DNA of 64,000 nt from Calditrichales bacterium MX18-03 (GCA_021083345.1 JAJGRE010000005.1:186001-250000), one strand, 5' to 3'. Positions 1 to 15,270 are shown, counted from the first letter of the stretch. A program made the numbers and translations. The notes: generated by a model not told the origin, from the sequence alone.

Positions 1-1889
1 TTTTGATTGCACCCTATGAGAATATGTACCATCTGTCAGTTGAACTCATTGAGCATTATGGATACAGCAATGCAGAGGCTATAAGGGGCGATTTGCATGA
101 AGGGGTAAAAGCAGCGCACCAAGCTGTGGATAACGGCGCAAAGGTGTTGATTTCAAGGGGTGGCACCTTTACACTGATCAAAGAGTCCATTAATGTGCCC
201 GTCGTGGAAATTCAGACCAGTGCTTACGACGTCTTTGCCAACATGAAGCATATCGTCGGGAAGAATGAGCCTTTTGCTATCGTAGGGCATAATAATATCA
301 TCTACGGGTATGACCTGATCAAGGACTTTGTAAAGCAGGTAAAGAAGGTAGATATCGAGCGGGGTGAAAGCGTTGAACAAAAGATCAGACAGTGTGCGGA
401 GGACGGCATCAGGCTGTTTGTAGGCGATGCTGTTGTGAATAATGCCTGCAATAAGCTGGGGTATACCTGCTTCCTGCTGGAAAGCGGACGGGACTCTATA
501 CGAAGCGCCATAGAGGAAGCTAAGCGGATACTGGTTGCTTCGAAGAACGAAATAGAGAGGTCAAAGCGTTATATGGCGCTTATTGACTATGTTCATGACG
601 GTGTTATTGCAACAGACAATGAAAACCGCATTTTGCTCTTTAACTCGGTAGCTCAAGAGATTTTAGGCATACCCAAAGAAGACACCATCGGGCGCAATAT
701 TGGGGAATATATCGGGCTGGGTACTGCCCTGGAAGAGGTTGCACAAGGCAAAGCACTGATGGATGAGGTGCGGAAAATCAGGGAGACACTGGTGACCATC
801 AGCAATATCCCCATTGAAGTGAATAATGAAGGGAAGGGCTCGGTGGCTGTATTCCAAAACATCAAGACGCTGCAGAGCATGGAAGCTAATGTAAGGGTAA
901 AGCTGCTGCAAAAGGGGTTTGTAGCCAAGCACACCTTTGAGTCTATTGTTCATAAGAGCGCAGCCATTGAACACTGTATTTCCATAGCAAAAAAATTCAG
1001 CCGGTATGACTCCAGCGTCTTGATCGAAGGCAACTCAGGCGTTGGGAAAGAGCTTTTCGCGCAAAGCATACATAACGAAAGCAGAAGGAAAACGGGACCT
1101 TTTGTAGCGATAAACTGTGCAGCCTTGCCTATTTCTTTGATTGAAAGCGAGCTTTTCGGCTATGTGGAGGGGGCTTTTACCGGAAGTAAAAAGGGCGGCA
1201 AGGCAGGGGTGTTTGAGCTGGCTCATAAAGGTACGATATTTTTGGATGAAATCAGTGAGCTGCCCGTCGATGTGCAGGGGCGGCTGCTGCGCGTGCTGCA
1301 GGAGAGGGAGGTGGTCCGCCTGGGTGACGATAAGGTGGTACCCCTTGATGTACGCATCATCTGTGCAACAAACCGGGATATCAAAGAAATGGTTCAAGCG
1401 GGATCCTTCCGTCGGGATTTGTTTTACAGGATCAACACCTTGTCTTTTTACATACCCCCTTTGGCCCAGCGCAAAGAAGATATAGAGGTCATCGCCCGGC
1501 ATTTTCTTCAGCGGTATTGTAAAAAGTATTCCAAGAAAATCGACGGTTTCACCAAGGGCGCCACGGATTTTCTAAACAGTCATGATTATGAGGGAAATAT
1601 CCGGGAACTTCAAGGAATGATTGAAAGGGCGGTCATCATCTGTGAAGATACCATGGTGACAAGGAGTGATCTGAACAGCAGAGAGGCTGAGCAACAGGCT
1701 GTCAGGGAAAAAGCGGCCGGCGACCTTATTCCAGCCGGACTTGCAGAGGATATGCCCAGCTTGCAGGAGCTGGAGCAACGCTATATTTCGAAAGTATACG
1801 GCATGAACGGGAATTCGACGTCAAAAACTTGTGAAGTATTAAAAATAGATAGAACCACGCTATGGCGCAAAATGAAAAAACCACAGTGA
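1..1889 (+). CDS. Sigma-54-dependent activator with PrpR-type sensor domain (5' partial)
   Basis: Enhancer-binding transcription activator, cytoplasmic. The frame is open from the window edge; the first in-frame start-like codon (TTG at 3) already lies inside the conserved IAPYE strand of the PrpR N-terminal fold, so the true start is a few codons upstream. Order: PrpR_N ligand domain (about residues 1-175, with ISRGGT), PAS domain (about 190-300), sigma-54 AAA+ domain with Walker A GNSGVGKE (about 342-349), the sigma-54-contacting GAFTGS loop (about 388-393) and Walker B TIFLDE, then a C-terminal Fis-type helix-turn-helix ending TSKTCEVLKIDRTTLWRK. Family members such as PrpR respond to organic acids. 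The next genes form a sugar-acid-type operon preceded by three dyads and a -24/-12 promoter, so it very likely activates that operon. Ligand unknown. Confidence 0.93.
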   Translation, partial: LIAPYENMYHLSVELIEHYGYSNAEAIRGDLHEGVKAAHQAVDNGAKVLISRGGTFTLIKESINVPVVEIQTSAYDVFANMKHIVGKNEPFAIVGHNNIIYGYDLIKDFVKQVKKVDIERGESVEQKIRQCAEDGIRLFVGDAVVNNACNKLGYTCFLLESGRDSIRSAIEEAKRILVASKNEIERSKRYMALIDYVHDGVIATDNENRILLFNSVAQEILGIPKEDTIGRNIGEYIGLGTALEEVAQGKALMDEVRKIRETLVTISNIPIEVNNEGKGSVAVFQNIKTLQSMEANVRVKLLQKGFVAKHTFESIVHKSAAIEHCISIAKKFSRYDSSVLIEGNSGVGKELFAQSIHNESRRKTGPFVAINCAALPISLIESELFGYVEGAFTGSKKGGKAGVFELAHKGTIFLDEISELPVDVQGRLLRVLQEREVVRLGDDKVVPLDVRIICATNRDIKEMVQAGSFRRDLFYRINTLSFYIPPLAQRKEDIEVIARHFLQRYCKKYSKKIDGFTKGATDFLNSHDYEGNIRELQGMIERAVIICEDTMVTRSDLNSREAEQQAVREKAAGDLIPAGLAEDMPSLQELEQRYISKVYGMNGNSTSKTCEVLKIDRTTLWRKMKKPQ

Positions 1890-1890
1890 T

Positions 1891-1945
1891 GTTGCATATC
1901 GAAACTGAGTTGCAAAATGCAATAAAACAAGTTGCAATAAGCAAC
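1891..1945 (+). promoter_or_regulatory. Three GTTGC-N5-GCAAC dyads, probable activator (UAS) sites
   Basis: Three 15-bp sites follow the activator's stop codon: GTTGC-ATATC-GAAAC (1891-1905, one mismatch), GTTGC-AAAAT-GCAAT (1909-1923, one mismatch) and GTTGC-AATAA-GCAAC (1931-1945, perfect). Start-to-start spacings are 18 and 22 bp, roughly two helical turns, and the array lies about 130-180 bp upstream of the sigma-54 promoter. That is the usual geometry for enhancer-binding proteins. Assignment to the adjacent activator is inference. Confidence 0.8.
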
Positions 1946-2070: not shown

Positions 2071-2086
2071 TGGCACGGAACTTGCT
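2071..2086 (+). promoter_or_regulatory. Sigma-54 (-24/-12) promoter
   Basis: TGGCAC-GGAAC-TTGCT matches the sigma-54 consensus TGGCAC-N5-TTGCW at every fixed position, with GG at 2072-2073 and GC at 2084-2085. Transcription should start near 2097. This leaves a leader of about 70 nt to the kinase start at 2170 and argues against using any start upstream of the promoter. Confidence 0.9.
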
Positions 2087-2169: not shown

Positions 2170-3411
2170 ATGATTATTATCGCAGATGATTTGACGGGGG
2201 CCAATGATACCGCCGTACAATACAAAAAATACGGTTTTTCCACCATTGTGAAGGTTGTACACGGGGCGAAGGACGAATGCGGCTTTTGCAAGGATTATGA
2301 TATTCTTTCCATCAATGCCGATACAAGACCCTTGAGCAGCGAAAAGGCATATGAAAAAGTATATGCCATCACAAAACAAGTGTCCGATGACAGCATGGAT
2401 TGCCTTTACAAGAAAATCGACTCTGTCCTGAGAGGAAATCCGGGCTCCGAGCTTGATGCGGTAATGGATGCCATGAGTTGCCGGCTGGCCATCGTCGCAC
2501 CAAGCTTCCCGGAAACCGGAAGGCTGATCGAAGACGGCATCCTGTCGGTGGGGGAAAGAAGCATTAATGTGGTGGAGGTTTTTTCAAAAGGTATGAAGCG
2601 TAAAGTGCAAGGTATTCATTTGGATACGGTGCGGTGCGGTGCAGAGAAGCTTATGGCGCATATCGTCCTGCATCAGACCGAGGGCAAAGAGGTGTTTGTA
2701 CTGGATGCCTGTACGGACGAGGACTTAAAAATCATTAAAGACGCTTCCAAGCTGATTGAGGGAAAAAAAGTGCTATGCGGCTCCGCGGGCCTGGCAAAGC
2801 AGCTGAGCATGGACCGTGCGGCAGAAAAGCAGGGTGGTGCTGCTCATCCCGGCATGGAAGATAAAAATCGCGTCGTAATGGTTGTTATAGGATCCCGGAC
2901 CAACGTTACGGCGCTGCAGGTAGAGCGGGCTTCCGAATACTACGGAGTACCGATTATAAAGGTGGAAACAGGGAAAATTATTGACGGGATGCAGCAGGCG
3001 GAGACGGATCGGTGTGCAAAGCAACTTCTGCAAGAGACGGAAAAAGGACAAGACCTGGTTATCGTAGCAGTAGACAGCCTGTTTGAGGAATATGCTCTGG
3101 TACTGAAAAACAGCGACGAGGAATACGGACAGGCCCTGAACATTGTAGAAGCACTGGGCAATATTGTAAAGAGGGTATATGGCGAAATCAGTCCGCACTC
3201 GATTATCTGCTCCGGCGGCGATACTTCCTTTCAGATCTGCAAGGCATTTGATGCCTGGGGCATTGAGCTGATGGATGAGATCATGCCGGGTGTCCCGGTG
3301 GGGAAGATGGTGGGCGGCCAGGCGGATTCAACGCTGATCGTGACCAAATCCGGCGGCTTCGGTGCCGAGGATGTCATGATCCGGATCATCGAATACCTGC
3401 GCAGTGATTAA
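2170..3411 (+). CDS. Four-carbon acid sugar kinase family protein (DUF1537)
   Basis: Probable ATP-dependent kinase of a sugar acid such as threonate or erythronate (413 aa), first gene of the sigma-54 operon. It starts MIIIADDLTGANDTA, the diagnostic N-terminal motif of the DUF1537/OtnK-DtnK family, with a catalytic-type Asp pair. The C-terminal half carries the nucleotide-binding GSRTNVTALQ and ICSGGDTSF segments and ends near PVGKMVGGQADSTLIVTKSGGF, typical of the family. ATG 2170 is preceded by GGAGG about 14 bases upstream. In-frame codons back to 1966 lie before the promoter and were rejected. Family members make the 4-phosphate of C4 acids for a PdxA2-type dehydrogenase, which is encoded two genes downstream. 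Exact substrate not determinable from sequence. Confidence 0.88.
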   Translation: MIIIADDLTGANDTAVQYKKYGFSTIVKVVHGAKDECGFCKDYDILSINADTRPLSSEKAYEKVYAITKQVSDDSMDCLYKKIDSVLRGNPGSELDAVMDAMSCRLAIVAPSFPETGRLIEDGILSVGERSINVVEVFSKGMKRKVQGIHLDTVRCGAEKLMAHIVLHQTEGKEVFVLDACTDEDLKIIKDASKLIEGKKVLCGSAGLAKQLSMDRAAEKQGGAAHPGMEDKNRVVMVVIGSRTNVTALQVERASEYYGVPIIKVETGKIIDGMQQAETDRCAKQLLQETEKGQDLVIVAVDSLFEEYALVLKNSDEEYGQALNIVEALGNIVKRVYGEISPHSIICSGGDTSFQICKAFDAWGIELMDEIMPGVPVGKMVGGQADSTLIVTKSGGFGAEDVMIRIIEYLRSD

Positions 3412-3440
3412 AAAACGAAACATGGATGGGAGTGATAAAG

Positions 3441-4595
3441 TTGATCAACTATCAAATGAAGATTCCTTCCTGTATGTACGGCGGTGAGGGATGTGTGGAT
3501 AAGCTGAAGGACATCGTCGCCAAGGAAAAAGCCCGGAAGGTCATCGCTTTTACCGATAAAGGCGTAAGAGGTGCAGGCCTTTGCGATGCGGCGCTGGACA
3601 TCATAACGGCAAGCGGTGCTGCCTTTGACATCATTGACAGTCTGAAGCCAGAGCCCAGCATTTATGATGTGGAAACCATGATGAAAGAGGTTGTGGGTGC
3701 AAAAGGTGATTTGATCGTTGCCATTGGCGGCGGCAGTGTCATGGATGCTGCCAAGCTGGCCTCAGTCCTGATGGGAGCAGATTATACTGTGTTTGACCTG
3801 GTGAATGATCCTGCATTGGCCCAGAAGAAGATGAAATCCGTCATGATCCCGACCACCTGCGGGACCGGCTCAGAGGCAACCTGCAACGCCATTGTCGCCA
3901 TTCCTGAGGAAAGTACCAAGAAGGGGATCGTCAATGACAATCTGATACCGGACTACGTGATATTGGACCCCGGTATGATCGCAAAGCTGCCCAAGGCCAT
4001 CATAGCAGCCACGGGGGTTGATGCATTGGCTCATGCGGTCGAATGCTTTACCTCAAAAAAAGCCACACCCTTCAGCGATACCTATGCGCTGGCATCGGCA
4101 AAGCTGATTTTTGCAAACCTGAAAGAGGCATATGCCGATGGCGGCAACATGGAGGCAAAGGCAAACCTGCTGCTAGGCGCATTTTACGGCGGTGCAGCCA
4201 TTAGCGGCTCTGGAACAACGGCGGTGCACGCACTGGCTTATCCCTTGGGCGGGAAATACCACATTGCTCACGGCGTTTCAAATGCCATCCTTTTTGCCCA
4301 TGTCATGGCATTTAACAAAGATGCTTGTGCAGAGCGGCTGGCAATGCTCTGCGACGCCATCAGCCCGGAGATGGCATACAAGGCTGTGGGTGAAAAGGCA
4401 CAATATGTGATAGAGCGCATCGTCGATATCGTTAAGTTCACGGAGATACCTGTCAGTCTGGCACAGTTCGGTGTCAGACCGGAGGATATTGATTTCCTGG
4501 TGGAAGCAGGAAGCAGCCAGCAAAGGCTGCTGGTCAACAACATGAAGGCGCTAAGCCTGGACGATATCCGAGAAATATATAAAAAAGTAATGTAG
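3441..4595 (+). CDS. Iron-containing alcohol dehydrogenase
   Basis: Group III NAD(P)-dependent dehydrogenase, cytosolic, about 384 aa. The Rossmann-like part has the dinucleotide signature AIGGGSVMDAAK. The metal-binding half has GVDALAHAVECF and a later pair of histidines in AVHALAYPLGGKYHIAHG, matching the Asp/His/His/His iron site. I prefer the TTG start at 3441 because GGGAG lies 8 bases upstream; ATG 3426 in the same frame has no clear ribosome site. It sits between a sugar-acid kinase and a PdxA2-like dehydrogenase, so it may oxidise or reduce a hydroxyl or aldehyde intermediate of the pathway. Its TAG stop is the first three bases of a palindromic element. Confidence 0.88.
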   Translation: MINYQMKIPSCMYGGEGCVDKLKDIVAKEKARKVIAFTDKGVRGAGLCDAALDIITASGAAFDIIDSLKPEPSIYDVETMMKEVVGAKGDLIVAIGGGSVMDAAKLASVLMGADYTVFDLVNDPALAQKKMKSVMIPTTCGTGSEATCNAIVAIPEESTKKGIVNDNLIPDYVILDPGMIAKLPKAIIAATGVDALAHAVECFTSKKATPFSDTYALASAKLIFANLKEAYADGGNMEAKANLLLGAFYGGAAISGSGTTAVHALAYPLGGKYHIAHGVSNAILFAHVMAFNKDACAERLAMLCDAISPEMAYKAVGEKAQYVIERIVDIVKFTEIPVSLAQFGVRPEDIDFLVEAGSSQQRLLVNNMKALSLDDIREIYKKVM

Positions 4596-4755
4596 TACTC
4601 TGTTAACCCTAATTCTATATATTATCGCCGGTTAAATTTCCGTAGTACTGCGTTGTCGTCACTCGCAATACATAGAGTATTACTCACTCCTCCGCCTTGT
4701 CCTACGAAAATTTTCCTCGCCGAGTAATACATAGTTTAGAGTTAACAGAGTACTA
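4593..4755. repeat. MITE-like palindromic element, 163 bp
   Basis: The ends are perfect 15-bp inverted repeats: TAGTACTCTGTTAAC (4593-4607) and GTTAACAGAGTACTA (4741-4755). Imperfect complementarity continues inward for roughly another 30 bp on each side (TATTATCGCCGG against CCTCGCCGAGTAATA; AAATTTCCGTAG against CCTACGAAAATTTT), so the transcript could fold into a long hairpin. There is no coding capacity. The element separates two operon genes and supplies the stop codon of the upstream one. TA at both ends could be a target duplication. Type of element (MITE or REP-like) is inference; no second copy was seen in the window. Confidence 0.8.
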
Positions 4756-4782
4756 GCTGCAATGGTTTTGGAGGTTAATCAA

Positions 4783-5820
4783 ATGAAAGGCAAAAAAATC
4801 CTGGGAATCACCATGGGTGATCCTGCCGGCTGCGGCCCGGAAATAACGGTTAAAGCGCTGGCGAGAAAAGAGATCTACGATATGTGCAACCCCATCGTCA
4901 TTGGTGACGCCGGTATGATGAAGGATGCTATCCGGGTTGTAGGTGCAAAGGATATTGAAATACACAAGGTGGGCGATGTGAAGGATGCAAAATTCCAATT
5001 CGGCATAATCGACGTCCTGCATCTTGATCTTGTAGATATGAGCACGCATCAGTATGGGAAGGTATCTGCCGCAGCGGGAGAGGCGGCTTTCCAGTGTGTC
5101 AGGAAAGTCATTGAACTGGCTCTGGCAGGGGAAGTTGATGCCACTATTACAAATCCGCTGAATAAGGAAGCCATCAACCTGGCCGGGCATCATTATTCGG
5201 GGCACACGGAAATCTATGCCGACTTGACCGGCACCCGAAATTACTCCATGATGCTGGCCCATGAAGACCTGAGGGTGGTACATGTTTCTACACATGTATC
5301 CTTAAGGGAAGCATGTGAAAGAGTAAAAAAAGAAAGAGTGTACGATGTTATCAAGATTGCCCACGATGCATGCAAGCGGCTGGGGATTGACAATCCCAAG
5401 ATCGGTGTTGCCGGACTGAACCCGCATGCAGGTGAAAACGGATTGTTTGGAACAGAGGAAAAGAATGAGATTGAACCGGCCATAAAAATGGCCCAGGCTG
5501 AAGGGGTCCTTGCTGAAGGACCGCTTCCGGCAGATTCCGTGTTCTCCAAAGCAAGAGGCGGATGGTATGATATTGTGGTGGCCATGTACCACGACCAGGG
5601 ACACATCCCATTGAAGGTTCTCGGCTTTGTTTACGACAACAAGGCAAAACGGTGGAGCGATATTAGCGGGGTCAATATCACCCTGGGTTTGCCCATCATC
5701 AGAAGCTCCGTAGATCACGGGACAGCCTTCGGCAGAGCCGGGCAGGGGCTGGCAAATGAAACAAGTTTAATTAACGCCATTCATTATGGTGTTCAATTAG
5801 CAACAAACAACAAAAACTAA
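4783..5820 (+). CDS. pdxA2: PdxA2-type 4-phospho-acid-sugar dehydrogenase
   Basis: Predicted NAD-dependent, metal-dependent oxidative decarboxylase (345 aa) of the PdxA family. Motifs: GDPAGCGPEI near the N-terminus, ITNPLNKEAINLAG, GHTE and VVHVSTH metal/substrate histidines, YHDQGHIPLK and RSSVDHGTAFG near the C-terminus. True PdxA acts on 4-phosphohydroxy-L-threonine in vitamin B6 synthesis, while PdxA2 paralogues beside DUF1537 kinases oxidise threonate or erythronate 4-phosphate to dihydroxyacetone phosphate and CO2. Context points to the second role. ATG 4783 has GGAGG 8 bases upstream, so the in-frame ATG at 4762 was rejected. No other pyridoxine gene is nearby. Confidence 0.88.
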   Translation: MKGKKILGITMGDPAGCGPEITVKALARKEIYDMCNPIVIGDAGMMKDAIRVVGAKDIEIHKVGDVKDAKFQFGIIDVLHLDLVDMSTHQYGKVSAAAGEAAFQCVRKVIELALAGEVDATITNPLNKEAINLAGHHYSGHTEIYADLTGTRNYSMMLAHEDLRVVHVSTHVSLREACERVKKERVYDVIKIAHDACKRLGIDNPKIGVAGLNPHAGENGLFGTEEKNEIEPAIKMAQAEGVLAEGPLPADSVFSKARGGWYDIVVAMYHDQGHIPLKVLGFVYDNKAKRWSDISGVNITLGLPIIRSSVDHGTAFGRAGQGLANETSLINAIHYGVQLATNNKN

Positions 5821-5841
5821 AAAGGGAATGGGGGAACTATA

Positions 5842-6909
5842 ATGAAAATGTTCAAGACAAGAAGACTGATTGCTCTCGCTCTGGTCATCGTCATGATGTT
5901 TGCCGCAGCGGCTTGCGGCAAGACAGAAACAGCACAGGCTCCGGCAGCTCCCGCAGAAGGAGAAGCTGCAGCGGCAAAACCCGAAAACCTGTTGTTTGCC
6001 ACTTACCAGGTTGGTTCATCAAACTACACCATTTCTGCAGGTTTAGGAACACTCTGGCAGAACTATCTCCCGACGGGTTCCATGATCGACATTCAGCCTA
6101 TCTCGCCTGGCGGAATGGGTGCACCATACCTTTTTGAAGAAGGAAAGGCAGATATTGCTTTTGTAAACGGAGCACCTGCAAAGTGGGCTTATGAAGATGG
6201 TTCACTGGGAAAACCGGCTACACAGAAGTTCAGGGCACTTGTCGGAAGCATGACCAATGTATCGGCGGTCAACTTCATGACAAAAGCTTTTATGAAAAAG
6301 TATGGCGTCAGCACAATCGAAGAAGTTATTGAAAAGAAGATTCCGATCAGGATAGGGTGCAGCCCTAAAGGCTCAATGGATGAGCGTGTTGTCAACATGA
6401 TGCTTGAGCATCTTGGTGTTACTTATGATGATATCAAGTCATGGGGCGGCGACGTCATCCATGGCGGTGGCGGCGACCTGTCAGCCCTTGTCAGAGACGG
6501 CAAGCTGGACTTTATGCTTGACCATACCTCCGCACAGTCCTCAACAATGACTGAGATTGCAATGACCTGCGACATACAGTTCACCCAATGGGGCGAAGAC
6601 CTGCTCAAGTATTTTGAAACACAAGGCTTTGAACGCATAAAGGTCCCTGCAAACTCCTGGAAGGGACAGGACAAGGAAATCATCAATGCCGGTACACCGG
6701 ATTGCATCTTCGTTGCAGCTGATATGTCCGACGAAGCGGCTTATGCCCTTGCAAAAGGCATTTGTGAAAAGAGAGATTATCTGGTAAACCAGTATTCATC
6801 CCTGGAGCCTTTTGACCCCAAGACTTGCTGGAAGCCGGAGAAAGTCGGCAATGTTCCGCTTCATCCGGGCGCAGAAAAGTATTTCAAGGAAATGGGTTAT
6901 ATGCAATAA
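5842..6909 (+). CDS. TAXI-family TRAP transporter solute-binding lipoprotein
   Basis: Extracytoplasmic binding protein (355 aa) that should deliver a carboxylate-type ligand to the fused permease encoded next. A lipoprotein signal peptide is visible: MKMFKTRR, a hydrophobic core, then AAAACG with Cys25 as the lipidation site. Mature protein begins with a low-complexity Ala/Glu linker, followed by ENLLFATYQVGSSNY, the typical TAXI (NMT1/THI5-like) opening. GGGGDLSALVRDGKLDFM lies mid-protein. TAXI receptors are few in characterised examples, so the ligand is unknown; operon context suggests a sugar acid or related acid. ATG follows AATGGGGGAAC. Confidence 0.92.
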   Translation: MKMFKTRRLIALALVIVMMFAAAACGKTETAQAPAAPAEGEAAAAKPENLLFATYQVGSSNYTISAGLGTLWQNYLPTGSMIDIQPISPGGMGAPYLFEEGKADIAFVNGAPAKWAYEDGSLGKPATQKFRALVGSMTNVSAVNFMTKAFMKKYGVSTIEEVIEKKIPIRIGCSPKGSMDERVVNMMLEHLGVTYDDIKSWGGDVIHGGGGDLSALVRDGKLDFMLDHTSAQSSTMTEIAMTCDIQFTQWGEDLLKYFETQGFERIKVPANSWKGQDKEIINAGTPDCIFVAADMSDEAAYALAKGICEKRDYLVNQYSSLEPFDPKTCWKPEKVGNVPLHPGAEKYFKEMGYMQ

Positions 6910-6924
6910 TATCCGTGAGAGCTG

Positions 6925-6967
6925 AAAGAGGACCCTTGAACACCCTGGTTTTTCATGGGTCCTCTTT
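6925..6967 (+). terminator. Intra-operon hairpin between TRAP receptor and permease
   Basis: Perfect 11-bp stem AAAGAGGACCC (6925-6935) / GGGTCCTCTTT (6957-6967), then TCTT. It lies between the binding-protein stop and the permease start. As a partial terminator or 3' stabiliser it would give more receptor than permease, common for binding-protein transporters. The T-run is short, so readthrough is expected. Confidence 0.7.
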
Positions 6968-6992
6968 TCTTAAAATGAGAAGAGGTGTCTGA

Positions 6993-8948
6993 ATGAGTAA
7001 GTATGCAGAAAAAATTGTTGCAAAGGCGGCTACAGAAGACGATCCGTTAGAGGTGAAAGGGCAAATCTCAAACCATCGTACCACGGTCATTGCAGTATTG
7101 TCTGTGGTTTTCCTGGTTTTTCAGGTTTATATCGGAGCGGTCAAGCCTTTGGATGCGTATATATCAACGCCCTTGCATATATGCCTTGCATTGGCCATTG
7201 CGATTCTATACAAACCGCTGGCGGACATGTACAAGAAAAAATGGTTATGGATCATTGACGGCGCTTTGCTTGCCGGCTTATTAACAACGGTTTACTACTT
7301 TGTAACGAACCTTGACCGTCTCATCTATAGAATCATGATGGTCGATGAGATGCTTCCGCTGGATTTGTTTTGCGCATACTTTATGTTGGTTGTCATTTTG
7401 GAAATCGTACGTAGGACGATGGGCTGGAATCTTTTTGTATTCATTCTGATTTTTATTGCGTATGCTTTTGTGGGCCAGCATCTGACAGGGCCATTGCGTT
7501 ACTATGGGATGAGCTGGCAGCAATTCGGCGAGATGCTCTTGCTGTCTCCGGACGGTATTCTAGGCACGCCGCTGGTTGCATCCGTTAATACCATTTTTTA
7601 CTTCCTTCTGTTTGGCGCATTCTTCTCAAAATGCGGCGGCGGACAGGTATTGATCGACCTGGGGATGAAGCTAAGTGACAAGACAGCCGGAGGTCCTGCA
7701 AAGGCTGCTGTCGTATCCAGCGGATTGATGGGCATGATCAGCGGCAGCGCTGTTGCCAATGTAACGTCAACCGGCGTGCTGACCATACCGCTGATGAAAA
7801 AAGCGGGCTATACGCCTGAACAGGCAGGTGCCATTGAAGCGGTAGCTTCTACAGGGGGGCAGATCATGCCGCCTATTATGGGTATCGGCGCCTTTATTAT
7901 GGCTGAGATGATTGGCGTCAGTTATGCTCAGATTGCCTTGTCGGCAGTGATTCCTGCACTTGCCTATTATGCATCGGTCTTTCTTCTGGTGCATAACCTG
8001 GCGAAGAAAAGAAAGCTTGAGACGGTCGGGAAGGAAGAAGTCAAGTATGTATCAGAACCGATCATACCGAGACTATATCAGCTCGCTCCGATCCTGGCTG
8101 TTGTTGCCCTGATCTTTATGGGCGCATCCTTGACACGTGCTGCTTTGGTAGGAACGGTGCTTTCCATAGCAGTCAGCATGTTTTCCACTGAAACGCGCAT
8201 GAACGGCAGCAGACTGCTGGAGGCACTGATGGACGGCATCAAACAGGCTGCAATGATCGCTATTCCGACTGCCGCTTGCGGCATCATGATCGGCATAGTC
8301 GTACGTTCGGGTGTTGCCAACAAACTGACAACGATTATCGCATCCGTAGGCAGTGCAAATCTGCTGCTTGCTTTGATGATCGGGATGGTCGGATGTCTGC
8401 TTCTGGGAATGGCCTTGCCTACGGTAGCGGCTTACCTTATAGCGAATATCCTGTTCTGCCCTACCATTATCAGCCTGGGTGTTCCCACGCTGCCTGCAAA
8501 TATGTTTATTTTCTACTTCGGTGTTATTGCACAGATTACACCGCCGGTATGCCTGGCCTCCTTTACGGCAGCGGGTATTGCCAAGGCGAATTCATGGAAA
8601 ACGGGATGGACGGCCTTTGCATATGCCATTGTTTCATTCCTGGTCCCATATGTTTTTATTTACCAGCCTGAAATTCTGCTGTTGGGCACTGTGACGGACA
8701 CGATTATTGCATCAATTGTAATGTCTATAAGCGTTTTCTTCCTGGCAGGCAGTGTTGCAGGATATCTGTTTACGCCGGTCAAGGCGGTTTGGATGCGGAT
8801 TTTCTTGTTCGTAATAGCAGTCATGATCATTGTACCGGAGACGCTATCGACGATAATAGGTGTTGGTGTAGGTGCTGTCGTAGCAGTCTTCTTCTACATG
8901 AAAGCACAGAGGGACAAGAAAGCAGCACTCAGAGAACTTGAGGCATAA
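6993..8948 (+). CDS. TRAP transporter fused 4TM/12TM permease (DctQM type)
   Basis: Integral membrane protein (651 aa) fusing the small Q and large M subunits of a TRAP transporter, the form typically paired with TAXI receptors. About 16 hydrophobic helices are apparent. The M-domain signatures appear in SSGLMGMISGSAVANV, STGGQIMPPIMGIGAF, LLGMALPTVAAYLIA and AQITPPVCLASFTAAGIA. It would use a sodium or proton gradient to import the ligand captured by the preceding lipoprotein. ATG 6993 has AGAAGAGGTG upstream. A partial terminator precedes it. Confidence 0.93.
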   Translation: MSKYAEKIVAKAATEDDPLEVKGQISNHRTTVIAVLSVVFLVFQVYIGAVKPLDAYISTPLHICLALAIAILYKPLADMYKKKWLWIIDGALLAGLLTTVYYFVTNLDRLIYRIMMVDEMLPLDLFCAYFMLVVILEIVRRTMGWNLFVFILIFIAYAFVGQHLTGPLRYYGMSWQQFGEMLLLSPDGILGTPLVASVNTIFYFLLFGAFFSKCGGGQVLIDLGMKLSDKTAGGPAKAAVVSSGLMGMISGSAVANVTSTGVLTIPLMKKAGYTPEQAGAIEAVASTGGQIMPPIMGIGAFIMAEMIGVSYAQIALSAVIPALAYYASVFLLVHNLAKKRKLETVGKEEVKYVSEPIIPRLYQLAPILAVVALIFMGASLTRAALVGTVLSIAVSMFSTETRMNGSRLLEALMDGIKQAAMIAIPTAACGIMIGIVVRSGVANKLTTIIASVGSANLLLALMIGMVGCLLLGMALPTVAAYLIANILFCPTIISLGVPTLPANMFIFYFGVIAQITPPVCLASFTAAGIAKANSWKTGWTAFAYAIVSFLVPYVFIYQPEILLLGTVTDTIIASIVMSISVFFLAGSVAGYLFTPVKAVWMRIFLFVIAVMIIVPETLSTIIGVGVGAVVAVFFYMKAQRDKKAALRELEA

Positions 8949-8998
8949 TATGCAATTTTTTAAAAGGCAAAGAAAAACGGGCAGGAGGCTGCAACAGA

Positions 8999-10516
8999 AT
9001 GTTAAAGCATGATGTAATCATAGCCTGCTCCGGCCTTGCTGCTCTTGCGACAGCTGCAAGGCTGCATGAGCTGGGGAAGAAGAATATCGCAATTTATACG
9101 ACGGATTTCGGTGGCACACCCTATATAGCCGCGATTAATTTCGTGCTCCCGGATAATCCATACGGAGACACGTCACAGCAGTATTATGAGGATATGCTGC
9201 AGGCAGGCTACCGGATCAACAACAAGAAGCTTGTCCAGGACATGACATCCAACACCTTTAGGGGCTATGAGCTTCTGCGGCGGTGGGATATCGAATTTGC
9301 CACAGAGAAAGACGGCTCCACAAAGCTCCGCCATGTTTCTGGTCATACTTATCCCCGATCCCTTTGCTGCACTACAGATTTGATCGGAGCGGAAATTATC
9401 AGGAAAATGGTAGGAAAACTGCAAAAATGCGGGGTTCTGATCAATAGAGGCTGTGAATGTGTGGGGCTGCTGTCGGAAGACGGCAAGATCCACGGCATCA
9501 CAGTGAAAGATGACAAGGGAAGCTGCTTCAATGCTTATGCCCCTGTCGTTGTGGCAGCCTGGGGCGGCGTCGGAAACTTGTTCGGCAAATCCACCTATCC
9601 TCAGGATATCAAAGGCAACACCCTTGCCATTGCCAGAGAAGCGGGCGCCAAGCTCGTCGATATCGAATTCCTGGAATATGAACCTATGGTAATCATGAGT
9701 CCGACAGGTGCTGTGGGTGAACCCTGTCCAACCGCCATGCTGGGAGAGGGCGCACATCTCTTGAATACCGAGGGAGAACGGTTTATGCTGAAGGTAAGAC
9801 CTCAAGGAGAAGCCGGATCTCCAAAGACACTGATCAACAAGGAGATCTGGAAGCAGGTTGATGCCGGAAAGGGCACACTCCATGGCGGGGTATACGTTGA
9901 TCTGCGGCACATTCCTTCCGAAACGCTGAAAGCCTACCCATGGTTCTATGACCGGCTGATGGAAAACGGCGTAGATCCCAACCGTGATCTGATTGAAGTA
10001 GGGCCTATGGCACATAGCTTTTCCGGCGGCGTTTATGTGGATGCACAGTATGAATCCACTGTTGAGGGCTTTTATGCCGTGGGAGAAGCCTGCGGCGGTG
10101 TGCATGGCGCCTGCCGCTGTGCGGGAAATGCCGCCAGTCAGGCAACCCTGTCGGGTCTGCTATGTGCAGAGGGCATCATGAAAAAGAAAAACAATACAAA
10201 GACAAAAGAATTCCCCATTGAATATTCACAGGACAAAACGGTATCCGGAACCTATATTCCACAGGTTAGAGAGCTGGCGGCAAAGGCGTTGGGCATTTAC
10301 CGCAACGGTAATATGCTGAAAAGCGCGCTTGAAGCGATGAAAGCGCTACGCGAAAAAGAGGATGTGAAGAAGGATACCGAAACCTATCAGACAGTAGTCT
10401 CCGTAATGCTGATGCTTCAGGCAGCCTTGCTAAGGGAAGAAAGCCGGGGAACGCATATGCGGACGGACCATCCCAATGCGCTGGATTGCTTTGAAAAAGA
10501 ACTAATTATTGAATGA
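8999..10516 (+). CDS. FAD-dependent oxidoreductase, fumarate reductase/NadB flavoprotein family
   Basis: Predicted soluble flavoprotein (505 aa) of the FAD_binding_2 family. The fold is indicated by the N-terminal beta-alpha-beta (DVIIACSGLAAL), the central VVVAAWGGVGNLFG segment and the C-terminal YAVGEACGGVHGACRCAGNA, which corresponds to the HGANRL region of fumarate reductases and L-aspartate oxidase. The usual GSGxAG dinucleotide motif is degraded to CSGLAA, losing two of three glycines. It has no signal peptide and no Fe-S partner nearby, so a quinone-linked succinate dehydrogenase is unlikely. Within the operon it probably oxidises, or reduces an enoate form of, the acid substrate; this is inference. 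AGGAGG lies 10 bases before ATG 8999. Confidence 0.82.
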   Translation: MLKHDVIIACSGLAALATAARLHELGKKNIAIYTTDFGGTPYIAAINFVLPDNPYGDTSQQYYEDMLQAGYRINNKKLVQDMTSNTFRGYELLRRWDIEFATEKDGSTKLRHVSGHTYPRSLCCTTDLIGAEIIRKMVGKLQKCGVLINRGCECVGLLSEDGKIHGITVKDDKGSCFNAYAPVVVAAWGGVGNLFGKSTYPQDIKGNTLAIAREAGAKLVDIEFLEYEPMVIMSPTGAVGEPCPTAMLGEGAHLLNTEGERFMLKVRPQGEAGSPKTLINKEIWKQVDAGKGTLHGGVYVDLRHIPSETLKAYPWFYDRLMENGVDPNRDLIEVGPMAHSFSGGVYVDAQYESTVEGFYAVGEACGGVHGACRCAGNAASQATLSGLLCAEGIMKKKNNTKTKEFPIEYSQDKTVSGTYIPQVRELAAKALGIYRNGNMLKSALEAMKALREKEDVKKDTETYQTVVSVMLMLQAALLREESRGTHMRTDHPNALDCFEKELIIE

Positions 10517-11424
10517 AAAGAGTGATGATCTTGAATATAGCTGGAATTATCCCTGCAATGGCTACGCCGATGTTTGAGGACGGCTCAATCAATGAGGCGG
10601 AGCTGAGGAATCAGGTAAACAGGCAGATCAATGCAGGTGCAAACGGAATCTTCTGTCTGGGTACCAACGGAGAAGCCTATATCCTGAGTAAGGAAGAAAA
10701 AATCAGGGTGATGGAGTTGTTCGTGGAAGAAGCGGAAGGCCGTGTGCCGGTATATGCAGGAACGGGCTGTGTGGGCACCCGGGATACCATAGAACTTTCG
10801 GAAAAAGCCAAGGAGATCGGTATTGATGCACTTTCTGTCATTTCTCCCTACTTCGCAGCCATCAATCAGACTGAGATATATGAGCACTACGCAGCACTGG
10901 CTGAATCGGTGGACTTGCCCATTATCCTGTATAATATGCCTGCGAGGACAGGAAACCATCTGGAATACACAACCGTAGCCAAGCTGGCGGCCAAATACAG
11001 GAATATCAGGGGCATCAAGGACAGCAGCGGGAATTTCGATAATATCCTGAGATATATCGAAAGCACAGATAAGAGCAGCTTCTCAGTGCTGTCCGGCAAT
11101 GACTCCCTGATCCTGTGGACCCTGATGGCAGGCGGTAAAGGCGGTGTAACGGCAGTGGCCAACATATTGCCTGAGATCATGGTGAGCATCTATCAATACT
11201 GGTGTGAAGGAAACTTTGAAAAAGCGAAGGAAGCGCAGGACGCCATAAGGCCCATCCGGGACTGCTTCAAATACGGCAATCCCAATTCCATCGTAAAAAG
11301 GGCAGCGAACCTGATCGGCCAGCCGGTAGGACCTTGCCGCAAGCCCTTTGGCATGGTTTCCAAAGAAGCGGATGCTGCAATTCTGGAGGCCATCAATACC
11401 TACTATGCGCAGTACTTGAAATAA
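10513..11424 (+). CDS. Dihydrodipicolinate synthase/N-acetylneuraminate lyase family aldolase
   Basis: Class I aldolase-type (beta/alpha)8 protein (303 aa). Motifs: GTNGEAYILSKEEK (pyruvate-binding loop), ILYNMPARTG with the active-site Tyr, and RGIKDSSGN with the Schiff-base Lys at about residue 169. Members include DapA, NanA and many 2-keto-3-deoxy-sugar-acid aldolases or dehydratases. Its last position but one in a sugar-acid operon suggests pyruvate-forming cleavage of a keto-acid rather than lysine synthesis. The start overlaps the flavoprotein stop (ATGA), implying translational coupling; in-frame ATG 10525 and TTG 10531 are alternative starts. Confidence 0.88.
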   Translation: MKRVMILNIAGIIPAMATPMFEDGSINEAELRNQVNRQINAGANGIFCLGTNGEAYILSKEEKIRVMELFVEEAEGRVPVYAGTGCVGTRDTIELSEKAKEIGIDALSVISPYFAAINQTEIYEHYAALAESVDLPIILYNMPARTGNHLEYTTVAKLAAKYRNIRGIKDSSGNFDNILRYIESTDKSSFSVLSGNDSLILWTLMAGGKGGVTAVANILPEIMVSIYQYWCEGNFEKAKEAQDAIRPIRDCFKYGNPNSIVKRAANLIGQPVGPCRKPFGMVSKEADAAILEAINTYYAQYLK

Positions 11425-11441
11425 GTTCTGAGGAGTTTATT

Positions 11442-11900
11442 ATGATCATAGCGGATTTGAAAAGCTTAACGCCCTACAAGGCGTTAAGCAGAAACATGGA
11501 ACTTGCCATAGACTACCTGGGGGAAATCGATTTTGAGACCATGGAAGATGGAAAATACCCGGTAGTAGGTGATGATATTTATGTTGTTGTCAGTACCTAT
11601 GCGACAAGGGAGCATGGGGAGAGCAAATATGAGGTTCATCGGAACTATATTGATATTCAGTGCCTTATCAGCGGGGAGGAACTGATTTACTGCAACGAGT
11701 TCTGCCGTATGGAGGCAGATGGCGACTATAACCCGCCGAATGACAAACAGAACCTTAAAGATCAGACAGGAGAGGTTGCTATTCATTTGAAGCCGGGCAT
11801 GGCAGCGGTTTTTTACCCCAATGATGCCCATAAAGCCTGCTGCAGGCTCCGGAATGAGCCGCAAAAGGTACGCAAGCTTCTGGTAAAAGTCAGGTTGTAG
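11442..11900 (+). CDS. YhcH/YjgK/YiaL family protein (DUF386)
   Basis: Small cytosolic cupin-like protein (152 aa), last gene of the operon. Recognised by YEVHRNYIDIQCLISG and MAAVFYPNDAHKA, the conserved metal- or sugar-binding segments of the family. Relatives sit in sialic-acid, diketogulonate (yiaL) and pectin or sugar-acid operons and are thought to act as anomerase- or isomerase-like helpers. This supports a sugar-acid substrate for the whole cluster. ATG 11442 has TGAGGAG 8 bases upstream; an extended in-frame start at 11334 would lie inside the aldolase gene and was rejected. Confidence 0.88.
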   Translation: MIIADLKSLTPYKALSRNMELAIDYLGEIDFETMEDGKYPVVGDDIYVVVSTYATREHGESKYEVHRNYIDIQCLISGEELIYCNEFCRMEADGDYNPPNDKQNLKDQTGEVAIHLKPGMAAVFYPNDAHKACCRLRNEPQKVRKLLVKVRL

Positions 11901-12631: not shown

Positions 12632-13399
12632 ATGAAGCAGATGATGAATAAAGGGGTACAAGTGCTAGACCGGGCACTGGATATATTGGAGCTGCTGGCG
12701 GTTGAAAAAGACGGACTTGGTGTGACGGAAATTGCAAACCGTCTTGGACTGAATAAAAGCACTGTTCACAGGATCCTTGCATCCATGGCGGAGCGCGGCT
12801 ATTTTGAGAAGACCAAGACCCGGGGGGAGTATAAAATTGGCCTGAAGCTTGTCGAACTCAGCAGCGTGTACCTCAACAGCGTCGAGCTGAAGACAGAAGC
12901 CAAGCCCTTTCTGTGGCAGCTTGCTTCAAAGCTGAACATGATCGTGCACCTTGCGATCCTGGACGGCAATGAAGCGGTTTACATCGAGAAAATCGATACG
13001 GTCAACAGTATCCGGCTATACTCACAGATCGGCAAACGCATCCCCGTGCATTGCTCATCCCTTGGCAAGTGCCTGTTATCCGGGTTTTCCGATGGTGAAA
13101 TCGGAAAAAGACTCAAGGCTTACAGCTTTGTCCGGTATACCGATCATACCGTGACGGATAAGGAAGAGCTGATCAGACAGGTCCGAGAGGTCAGAAGAAG
13201 AGGCTGGGCAGTGGATGATGAAGAGCATGAGAACGATGTCAGGTGCATTGGCGCCGGGATTATGGACTACAGGGGAAATGTCATTGCAGCGCTCAGTGTA
13301 ACGGGTACCTCATCCAGCATCACAAAAGAAAGAGAAGAGGAAGTGGCCACAATGGTTTTGGAAACGGCTGCAAACATCTCAAAGCGTCTGGGTCATTAG
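12632..13399 (+). CDS. IclR family transcriptional regulator (KdgR-like)
   Basis: Cytosolic DNA-binding regulator (up to 255 aa). N-terminal winged helix: VLDRALDILELLA, then GVTEIANRLGLNKSTVHRILASM. The C-terminal effector domain has HLAILDGNEAVYIEKID, PVHCSSLGKCLLSGF and an RRRGWAVDDEEHENDVRCIGAGI segment typical of IclR ligand pockets. It stands directly before KDG kinase and KDPG aldolase and shares a 14-bp operator word with them, so 2-keto-3-deoxygluconate or its phosphate is the likely effector. Start uncertain: ATG 12632, 12641 and 12644 are all in frame and lack a strong ribosome site; homologues begin near MNKGVQVLDRA. Confidence 0.9.
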   Translation: MKQMMNKGVQVLDRALDILELLAVEKDGLGVTEIANRLGLNKSTVHRILASMAERGYFEKTKTRGEYKIGLKLVELSSVYLNSVELKTEAKPFLWQLASKLNMIVHLAILDGNEAVYIEKIDTVNSIRLYSQIGKRIPVHCSSLGKCLLSGFSDGEIGKRLKAYSFVRYTDHTVTDKEELIRQVREVRRRGWAVDDEEHENDVRCIGAGIMDYRGNVIAALSVTGTSSSITKEREEEVATMVLETAANISKRLGH

Positions 13400-13414
13400 T
13401 TTTTTATCACAATA

Positions 13415-13442
13415 AAGTGAAACAGGATTTCATAATGTGAAA
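13415..13442 (+). promoter_or_regulatory. IclR-type operators before kdgK (copy 2)
   Basis: Two overlapping dyads: TGAAA-CAGGA-TTTCA (13418-13432) and TTTCA-TAATG-TGAAA (13428-13442). Both have TTTCA/TGAAA half-sites as in KdgR-like operators. The 14-mer at 13427-13440 repeats exactly the word before iclR. Confidence 0.75.
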
Positions 13443-13470
13443 CAAAATAGAGTAAAAAGAAAGGGGATTC

Positions 13471-14574
13471 ATGATGACGGTAATCAATGTCAAGTCAAAG
13501 GATAGCTGCAAGTACGACTGCATATCGCTTGGTGAAATTATGCTGCGGTTTGACCCGGGAGACGGGAGGATCAGGAACACAAGAGAATTCAAGGTATGGG
13601 AAGGCGGTGGTGAATACAACGTGACCAGGGGACTCAGGAAATGCTTCGGCATGAACGTCGCTGTAGTCACTGCTTTCGCAGATAACGACGTAGGAAGGTT
13701 GGTTGAAGATTTCATCCTGCAGGGCGGAGTGGACGTATCGCTGATTAAGTGGGTACCCTATGACGGAATTGGAAGAACGGTGCGAAACGGCCTGAATTTC
13801 ACTGAGCGGGGCTTTGGGGTCAGGGGTGCTTTGGGTGTGTCCGACAGGGGAAACACAGCTGCCTCTCAACTAAAAAAAGGCGATGTTGACTGGGAGTATA
13901 TTTTCGGGAAACTGGGATCCAGATGGTTCCATACAGGCGGCATATTCGCAGCCTTGTCGGATACGACACCGGAAGTGGTACTCGATGCAGTGCAGACTGC
14001 AAAGAAATATGGGACTATTGTGTCCTATGATCTCAACTACCGCCCCTCCTTGTGGAGCAGCATCGGCGGAAAGGCCAGAGCACAGGAAGTCAACTTGGAA
14101 CTGGCAAAATACGTAGACGTCATGATCGGGAATGAAGAAGACTTTACTGCCTGCCTGGGTTTCGAAGTGGAAGGAAACGATGAAAACCTGAAGGAACTGA
14201 ACCTGGATGGGTACAAGAAAATGATCGACGAAGTGGTACGCGCCTATCCCAACTTCAAAGCAGTGGCCACGACACTGAGGACCGTCAAGTCGGCAACCAT
14301 CAACGATTGGAGCGCCATATGCTGGGCAAACGGAGAGATTTACAAGGCCAATGACTATGACAATCTGGAAATCTACGACAGGGTAGGCGGCGGAGACAGC
14401 TTCGCATCCGGCCTTGTATATGGGCTGATGACCACAGGGAACCCGTTGAAGGCTGTCAACTATGGTGCCGCTCACGGTGCATTGGCAATGACAACGCCAG
14501 GGGATACCTCCATGGCAAACCTGAAAGAGGTTGAGAGCCTGATGAAGGGCGGAAGTGCAAGAGTACAAAGGTGA
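13471..14574 (+). CDS. kdgK: PfkB family sugar kinase, probable 2-keto-3-deoxygluconate kinase
   Basis: Predicted ATP-dependent phosphorylation of 2-keto-3-deoxygluconate to KDPG (367 aa, somewhat longer than the common 310-340). Ribokinase fold: SLGEIMLRFDPG at the start, GGGEYNVTRGLRKCFGM substrate motif, and the C-terminal RVGGGDSFASGL anion-hole motif with the catalytic Asp. The next gene is KDPG aldolase, 45 bases away. AAGGGG precedes ATG 13471. Substrate assignment depends on the neighbour; another aldonate or hexose is possible. Confidence 0.87.
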   Translation: MMTVINVKSKDSCKYDCISLGEIMLRFDPGDGRIRNTREFKVWEGGGEYNVTRGLRKCFGMNVAVVTAFADNDVGRLVEDFILQGGVDVSLIKWVPYDGIGRTVRNGLNFTERGFGVRGALGVSDRGNTAASQLKKGDVDWEYIFGKLGSRWFHTGGIFAALSDTTPEVVLDAVQTAKKYGTIVSYDLNYRPSLWSSIGGKARAQEVNLELAKYVDVMIGNEEDFTACLGFEVEGNDENLKELNLDGYKKMIDEVVRAYPNFKAVATTLRTVKSATINDWSAICWANGEIYKANDYDNLEIYDRVGGGDSFASGLVYGLMTTGNPLKAVNYGAAHGALAMTTPGDTSMANLKEVESLMKGGSARVQR

Positions 14575-14619
14575 GGACAAAGCAGGTATTAAGTGATAAT
14601 AACTGAAAGGATGGGTCAT

Positions 14620-15270
14620 ATGACAGGCAGAGAAGAGATCGTATCACGGATAAAGGAAGGCGGCCTGGTAGCAGTTGTAAGGGCTGAAAGCTCCGAACAG
14701 GCATTTCGGATAGCGGACGCCTGTATTGCCGGCGGGGTTGCTGCCATTGAAATCACGTTCACCGTTCCGGGGGCGGAGCTGCTGATCAAGGAACTGAAGC
14801 AGAAGTATCAATCAGGAGAGATCATTATCGGGGCAGGGACGGTGCTGGATCCGGAGACGGCAAGAACAGCCATCCTGGCCGGAGCAGAGTACATTGTCAG
14901 CCCATGCCTCAATGCAGAGACGGTAAAGCTCTGCAAGCGTTACCAAGTGGCATGCATGCCCGGCGCCATGACGGTAAAGGAAGTGGTGGAGTGTATGGAG
15001 GCAGGCGCGGACGTTGTAAAGATCTTTCCGGGCGAACTGTTTGGCCCGGCCATCATAAAAGCATTTAAAGGACCTCTGCCGCAAGCGGTCATGATGCCCA
15101 CCGGCGGCGTCAGCCTTGAAAATGTCGGAGAATGGATCAAAGCCGGTGCCGTTGCCGTAGGTGTCGGAGGAAACCTGACAGCCGGTGCCAAGAAGGGTGA
15201 TTATGAATCCATTACGGTTATAGCCAGGCAGTTTGTTGAGAAGATCCGGGAAGCACGGGCGAAAGCATAG
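14620..15270 (+). CDS. eda: Bifunctional KHG/KDPG aldolase
   Basis: Cleaves 2-keto-3-deoxy-6-phosphogluconate to pyruvate and glyceraldehyde-3-phosphate (216 aa, cytosolic, Entner-Doudoroff lower branch). Signatures: VAVVRAE near the N-terminus, AIEITFTVPGA with the catalytic Glu, GAGTVLDPE, SPCLN, and VVKIFPGELFGP with the Schiff-base Lys at about 134, then PTGGV. ATG 14620 is preceded by AAAGGATGG; an in-frame GTG at 14593 has no better site. Together with kdgK it makes the KDG branch. No uronate isomerase or dehydratase is in the window, so upstream steps lie elsewhere or use the DapA-family enzyme. Confidence 0.93.
   Translation: MTGREEIVSRIKEGGLVAVVRAESSEQAFRIADACIAGGVAAIEITFTVPGAELLIKELKQKYQSGEIIIGAGTVLDPETARTAILAGAEYIVSPCLNAETVKLCKRYQVACMPGAMTVKEVVECMEAGADVVKIFPGELFGPAIIKAFKGPLPQAVMMPTGGVSLENVGEWIKAGAVAVGVGGNLTAGAKKGDYESITVIARQFVEKIREARAKA

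Follow-up and report, generated by a model that had tools for sequence, protein, structure and literature searches.

Which acid does the operon at positions 2170-11900 of this stretch break down, and do its products act in a single pathway? The stretch, referred to here as the window, comprises 64,000 nucleotides from Calditrichales bacterium MX18-03 (GCA_021083345.1 JAJGRE010000005.1:186001-250000). The original prediction, made from the sequence alone, placed an acid-catabolism operon at this position, and its gene calls hold, the eight genes being present, intact and co-directional on the + strand, with every product matching its Pfam family. They encode a DUF1537 four-carbon acid sugar kinase (2170..3411; PF07005 and PF17042), an iron-containing alcohol dehydrogenase (Fe-ADH, 3426..4595; PF00465/PF25137), a PdxA2-type 4-phospho-hydroxyacid dehydrogenase/decarboxylase (4783..5820; PF04166), a TAXI-type TRAP solute-binding lipoprotein (5842..6909; TIGR02122), a fused TRAP permease (6993..8948; TIGR02123), a flavin adenine dinucleotide (FAD) flavoprotein of the SdhA/FrdA/NadB fold (8999..10516), a DapA-superfamily aldolase (10513..11424) and a YhcH/YjgK/YiaL-family protein, possibly a sugar-acid anomerase (11442..11900, a refined start; TIGR00022). 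The PdxA2 gene starts at 4783, with GGAGG just upstream, or at 4762. The reading frames of the flavoprotein and the aldolase share 4 nt. That the operon is real and conserved is in our view almost certain.

Five enzymes kept together across lineages

A profile search with the flavoprotein gave eight genomes in all, the window and those of loci L023, L024, L105, L106, L107, L108 and L109. Two of these loci came from the scan of genome contigs and five from the phylum and order samples. The flavoprotein is rare, occurring in 1 of the 391 genomes sampled from the class and in 5 of the 398 from the phylum, and the genomes that carry it include other lineages of the phylum. No further orthologue was found in the sampled class (391 genomes) or in the family of L023 (58 genomes). 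The 20 best matches among 130 plasmid records are only distant, at about 31% identity or less, and most of the annotated ones are labelled L-aspartate oxidase.

In six of the eight genomes (the window and L105 to L109) the flavoprotein, aldolase, Fe-ADH, PdxA2 and kinase are encoded at one locus, on one strand and within 6-14 kb, PdxA2 of L106 lying on the far side of a regulator. In the L023 genome the five enzymes are spread over two contigs, the kinase-PdxA2 pair being on L031 with a PdxA2 77% identical to that of the window. L024, a contig of 6.8 kb, is truncated on either side and still holds the aldolase, TAXI, TRAP, flavoprotein and PdxA2 genes. This linkage is far beyond chance and the module is not a chance assembly. 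The original prediction had proposed one route joining an importer, the flavoprotein, a pyruvate aldolase and a kinase/PdxA2 trunk for C4 acids, and had named unlinked orthologous loci as the finding that would count against it. The neighbourhoods of the flavoprotein and DapA homologues show the reverse, the only loci that depart from the single cluster being split or truncated, and the retention of the five enzymes in distant lineages bears out the single route. Two of its members are present here and are not constant parts: TAXI and the fused TRAP permease occur in six of the eight genomes, a carbohydrate-type ABC system taking their place in L108 and L109, and YhcH occurs in three. We also considered the flavoprotein and DapA as mutual alternatives; this idea was dropped, since tblastn finds DapA in both L108 and L109.

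A related four-enzyme module of aldolase, Fe-ADH, PdxA2 and kinase, free of the flavoprotein, recurs in other Clostridia, being present in L061, L063, L060 and L059. The L059 version has a diverged DapA (30%), and L070 holds kinase, PdxA2 and aldolase. The importers at these loci are DctP-TRAP (L061), major-facilitator-like (L060, by eye) and tripartite-tricarboxylate-like (L059, by eye). Two of the modules include phosphotriesterase-like proteins akin to phospho-furanose lactonases (L060 10576-11550 and L061 2789-3763), which suggests lactone substrates there. A link to sialidases, prompted by a BNR_2 protein in L063, was abandoned as the BNR_2 gene is not adjacent to the module.

The Fe-ADH and PdxA2 genes are adjacent in L059, L061 and L063, which ties Fe-ADH to the C4 trunk. 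The original prediction listed this extra dehydrogenase and gave it no role; the likeliest one is the reduction of a C4 semialdehyde, linking the aldolase and the kinase. We consider it probable that Fe-ADH feeds a C4-acid trunk made up of the kinase and PdxA2. The same gene distribution bears on a different arrangement, in which one importer serves two parallel feeders, DapA taking 2-keto-3-deoxy acids while the flavoprotein and Fe-ADH invert a tetronate stereocentre for the kinase, by FAD-linked oxidation of the imported tetronate to a keto acid and NADH-linked reduction. In known pathways the kinase and PdxA2 alone handle tetronates, and the flavoprotein is plausible as an oxidiser of 2-hydroxy acids. 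However, none of the eight flavoprotein genomes lacks DapA at the locus, whichever the importer, and Fe-ADH accompanies PdxA2 where the flavoprotein is missing, so that the pieces behave as one series. Parallel feeding, and the stereocentre inversion with it, is thus unlikely.

The variable parts of the clusters could also be taken to indicate a locus that scavenges sugar acids broadly and serves no one pathway, the genes being linked by shared induction only. The kinase sequence varies most, and the importers and extra dehydrogenases (Gfo/Idh, SDR and D-2-hydroxyacid dehydrogenase) also vary. Against this, the same five enzyme subfamilies are strictly co-retained across distant lineages, and we judge mere scavenging to be improbable.

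Active sites and family assignments

Each enzyme belongs to a known superfamily, and several fall below the equivalog cut-offs of named functions. The flavoprotein has the SdhA/FrdA/NadB fold over its full length, as seen in a fold search with a modest model (pLDDT, the predicted local distance difference test score, of 74.7) that did not separate NadB from FrdA kinship, and Pfam detects a C-terminal SdhA-type domain. In NadB and fumarate reductase the substrate is held by carboxylate-binding residues, a histidine contacts the second carboxylate and a catalytic arginine shuttles protons; in NadB the glutamate of the REGGH motif contacts the amine. In all eight orthologues the histidine of FHPT is replaced by glutamate (Glu228 here) and the catalytic arginine of APRD by lysine (Lys276), Pro-Thr stands in place of the SE of the next motif, and the REGGH glutamate is lost (Val/Ser). 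His339 and Arg373 are kept in all eight. By sequence, one substrate carboxylate would still be held, the second-carboxylate pocket and the amine contact appear to be gone, and lysine would stand in for the proton-shuttling arginine. The protein shares with L-aspartate oxidase and fumarate reductase the whole-chain fold and two carboxylate-binding residues, and like NadB it has no partner subunit: no iron-sulfur or membrane subunit gene is present in the operon, and none was seen in the open reading frame (ORF) lists of the orthologous loci. Since catalytic and pocket residues are altered throughout, it is unlikely to be an aspartate oxidase or a fumarate reductase. We infer, weakly, that it oxidises a C2 hydroxyl.

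A D-2-hydroxyacid dehydrogenase is found in three of the five flavoprotein-free clusters, L059 and L060 (Pfam) and L061 (by sequence), a pattern in keeping with a flavoprotein that makes a 2-oxo acid; this dehydrogenase could be a non-homologous substitute for it. A more distant relative of the flavoprotein, at 34%, is present at L141 (G033:C13, 7871-13333); its active site is of an intermediate kind (FEPA, Lys). It adjoins IlvD/Edd-type dehydratase-like and FdrA-like genes (by eye), hinting at further sugar-acid pathways that use this fold.

The FrdA/NadB fold, the two carboxylate-binding residues common to that group and the C-terminal SdhA-type domain would also suit an enoate reductase or a desaturase. 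Like fumarate reductase, such an enzyme would attack a C=C or CH-CH bond beside a carboxylate, and it would ready an unsaturated acid for aldol cleavage. The exchange of the proton-shuttling arginine for lysine in every orthologue, the glutamate in place of the second-carboxylate histidine and the fact that the operon encodes no iron-sulfur or cytochrome partner speak against this chemistry, which we hold to be doubtful.

An amino-acid route, in which the NadB-like flavoprotein would act as an amino-acid oxidase and supply the aldolase with a 4-hydroxy-2-oxo acid, is very unlikely. The best-scoring NCBIfam models for the flavoprotein are L-aspartate oxidases, but all scores are far below cut-off (258.1 bits against 452.75 for the L-aspartate oxidase model), the NadB amine contact is lost, and the operon has no aminotransferase or ammonia-handling gene. 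The importer belongs to the same receptor and fused permease families as TAXI-TRAP importers of glutamate and 2-oxoglutarate (receptor model 113.6 bits, cut-off 84.35; permease TIGR02123 575.7 bits, cut-off 320.65). TAXI receptors often bind glutamate (PMC11574862, PMC12344293), and receptors for 2-oxo- and 2-hydroxyglutarate exist (PMC12344293), a point in favour of the acid import proposed below. In VcGluP, glutamate binding is dominated by Y45 and Q93 (PMC11574862). In the TAXI receptors of the module the Y45 column holds Asn, Ser, Ala or Met and the Q93 column Asn, by an indirect mapping via the related chain 9ibp. A glutamate-binding receptor, which the original prediction had set down as contrary evidence, is therefore unlikely by sequence.

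The aldolase scores above the cut-off of the housekeeping DapA model TIGR00674 (231.8 bits against 206.15). It shares with DapA (4-hydroxy-tetrahydrodipicolinate synthase) the fold family, the Schiff-base lysine, the tyrosine and the carboxylate-binding arginine, the lysine being retained by every module aldolase. It differs in its motifs, the module aldolases having GTNGE for GTTGE (except L106), PYF for PYY in most and KDSSG for KEASG; the window protein has GTNGE, PYF, ARTG and KDSSG. The aldolases of the window, L023, L024, L061 and L063 group together with 100/98 support in a clade separate from housekeeping DapA, while those of L060 and L070 are unresolved in the same tree and that of L059 is a long-branch outlier. 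The genome has three DapA-family genes, one of the others being the canonical DapA. On the strength of the separate clade and the GTNGE and PYF motifs we reject the housekeeping identity. In true DapA the arginine binds the carboxylate of aspartate semialdehyde. It is kept in 12 of 12 core module aldolases and is missing from L059, which suggests that the aldehyde product carries a distal carboxylate, that is, that it would be a C4 semialdehyde acid.

The kinase lies within the DUF1537 superfamily (SBD_N 159.5 and NBD_C 99.1 bits, both above cut-off). PdxA2, the only PdxA in the genome, is likewise placed in its superfamily (TIGR00557 347.9 bits, cut-off 290.35; PF04166 363 bits, cut-off 27) and scores below the equivalog cut-off for D-threonate 4-phosphate dehydrogenase (NF002891, 353.2 bits against 583). 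The histidine motifs of Fe-ADH are kept in its homologues. YhcH is above the cut-off of TIGR00022 and below that of the N-acetylneuraminate anomerase NanQ model (NF040884, 118.5 bits against 160).

A candidate route and its substrate

We tentatively propose that these proteins act in one series, a credible account built largely by analogy. The TAXI-TRAP system would import an acid, probably derived from plant sugars. The flavoprotein would convert it to a 2-oxo-3-deoxy acid, the C2 hydroxyl being the likeliest site of oxidation, and YhcH may assist ring opening. The DapA-type aldolase would cleave the 2-oxo-4-hydroxy acid to pyruvate and 2,3-dihydroxy-4-oxobutanoate, a C4 semialdehyde acid. 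This product corresponds to aspartate semialdehyde, the substrate of true DapA, in hydroxylated form. Fe-ADH would reduce the semialdehyde to a tetronate, probably D-threonate, the kinase would make the 4-phosphate, and PdxA2 would oxidise and decarboxylate it to CO2 and dihydroxyacetone phosphate (DHAP), an intermediate of glycolysis. As the kinase and PdxA2 need a 3-hydroxy-4-phosphate C4 acid and the aldolase gives pyruvate and an aldehyde, reduction of the semialdehyde is the simplest joining reaction.

The last steps resemble D-threonate catabolism by DtnK and PdxA2, in which the same kinase and dehydrogenase families are expected to give DHAP and CO2 from D-threonate. Unlike that system, the operon adds a dedicated aldolase, a semialdehyde-type reductase, the flavoprotein and different importers, and its kinase is below the equivalog cut-off. 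The order of chemistry is that of the D-glucarate/galactarate pathway, where GarL carries out retro-aldol cleavage to pyruvate and a hydroxy-semialdehyde acid, which is reduced by GarR and phosphorylated by GarK. The enzymes here are not homologous to these (DapA-type, Fe-ADH and DUF1537), and the fragment is C4 rather than C3 and would then undergo oxidative decarboxylation.

The glucarate logic extended by one carbon implies a C7 3-deoxy-2-keto-aldarate for cleavage. One such compound is 3-deoxy-D-lyxo-heptulosarate (Dha), a sugar of the pectin rhamnogalacturonan II (PMC6353982). In Fischer projections drawn by hand, the D-lyxo centres C4-C6 of Dha point left, left and right. A cut at C3-C4 with reduction of the aldehyde gives left-right from the carboxylate, which is D-threonate, known as the substrate of kinase and PdxA2 enzymes of this type; this is a stereochemical fit and not proof. 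Substrates of the Dha type are a speculative suggestion, and the imported acid in the eight flavoprotein genomes may be a C2-hydroxy relative of Dha. We see only a slim chance that the operon is a pathway for C7 3-deoxy-ald(ul)arates including Dha, running via D-threonate, with the flavoprotein founding a new activity, namely a FrdA/NadB-fold dehydrogenase that would oxidise a 2-hydroxy sugar acid with a Lys/Glu pair replacing Arg/His.

Several points weigh against the proposed series. Dha is already a 2-keto acid, for which the flavoprotein is not needed, so either a compound related to Dha is what the cell takes up, or the flavoprotein has another function. At none of the loci did we see an electron acceptor for the flavoprotein. 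In the window protein Cys10 (TGC, 9026-9028) replaces the first glycine of the GxGxxA FAD-binding motif, unlike in the orthologues inspected, by natural change or sequence error. The best NCBIfam model for the kinase is D-threonate kinase (NF047819), at 218.8 bits against an equivalog cut-off of 450, and kinase identity is just 26-35% among most members of the module; the kinase substrate may therefore differ from one member to another. Enzymes of the Fe-ADH families catalyse many reactions. We infer the substrates, the order of the steps and the flavoprotein reaction throughout.

Genes for an MGH1-like glycoside hydrolase (PF22422) are present at L109 (10751-12865) and L070 (1-1629), the two proteins being 49% identical and from distant genomes; the enzyme may release the acid from a glycoside. 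Downstream of the operon in the window, at 12632-15270, there is a neighbouring sugar-acid operon with an IclR/KdgR-like regulator, a PfkB KDG-kinase-like protein and a KDPG/KHG aldolase. Both agree with a plant-sugar source and do not prove it.

Control region and significance

The gene of a PrpR_N/PAS/AAA+ sigma-54-dependent activator precedes the operon (3..1889, + strand; Pfam PrpR_N, Sigma54_activat and HTH_8). It starts about 28 nt upstream of the window and encodes 638 aa in all, the full ORF being present in L033. It is followed by palindromes that are probable activator sites (1892..1945, no strand assigned; TTGCAAAATGCAA at 1910 and TTGCAATAAGCAA at 1932) and by a sigma-54 (-24/-12) promoter, TGGCACGGAACTTGCT (2071..2086, + strand). 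This is the only exact match of the promoter pattern in the window; with one mismatch allowed the count in the window is not above chance, and the call is supported by position and conservation, not by rarity of the pattern. The clusters of L023, L105, L106 and L107 are likewise preceded by a promoter of this form, and that of L059 by a degenerate one. The palindrome of the window is also found in L023, and similar palindromes precede the promoters of L105, L106 and L059. In the L023 genome, a search ahead of the kinase-PdxA2 pair on its separate contig gave no sigma-54 promoter. The activator would control the whole catabolic operon for an imported sugar-derived acid. The kinase start is placed at the ATG at 2170, because the alternative longer ORF, from 1966, would run back through the promoter.

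Between the Fe-ADH and PdxA2 genes, at 4597-4757, there is a 161-nt palindromic repeat resembling a miniature inverted-repeat transposable element (MITE). The genome has about 14 nearly complete copies of it, 72-98% identical, as well as fragments. The repeat, the activator gene, the promoter and the upstream palindromes are additions to the original gene list.

Within the library that was searched, no paper turned up on this gene combination or on Dha catabolism. What is new is a flavoprotein subfamily within sugar-acid catabolism. Current annotation scatters the five enzymes over unrelated labels (aspartate oxidase, DapA and PdxA), whereas the analysis groups them as one catabolic module. 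It also offers testable functions for three poorly known groups, namely a distinct subfamily of flavoproteins, one of DapA proteins and a class of TAXI receptors. If the Dha reading is true, the module would fill a gap by providing a route for a sugar that is among the rarest in pectin.

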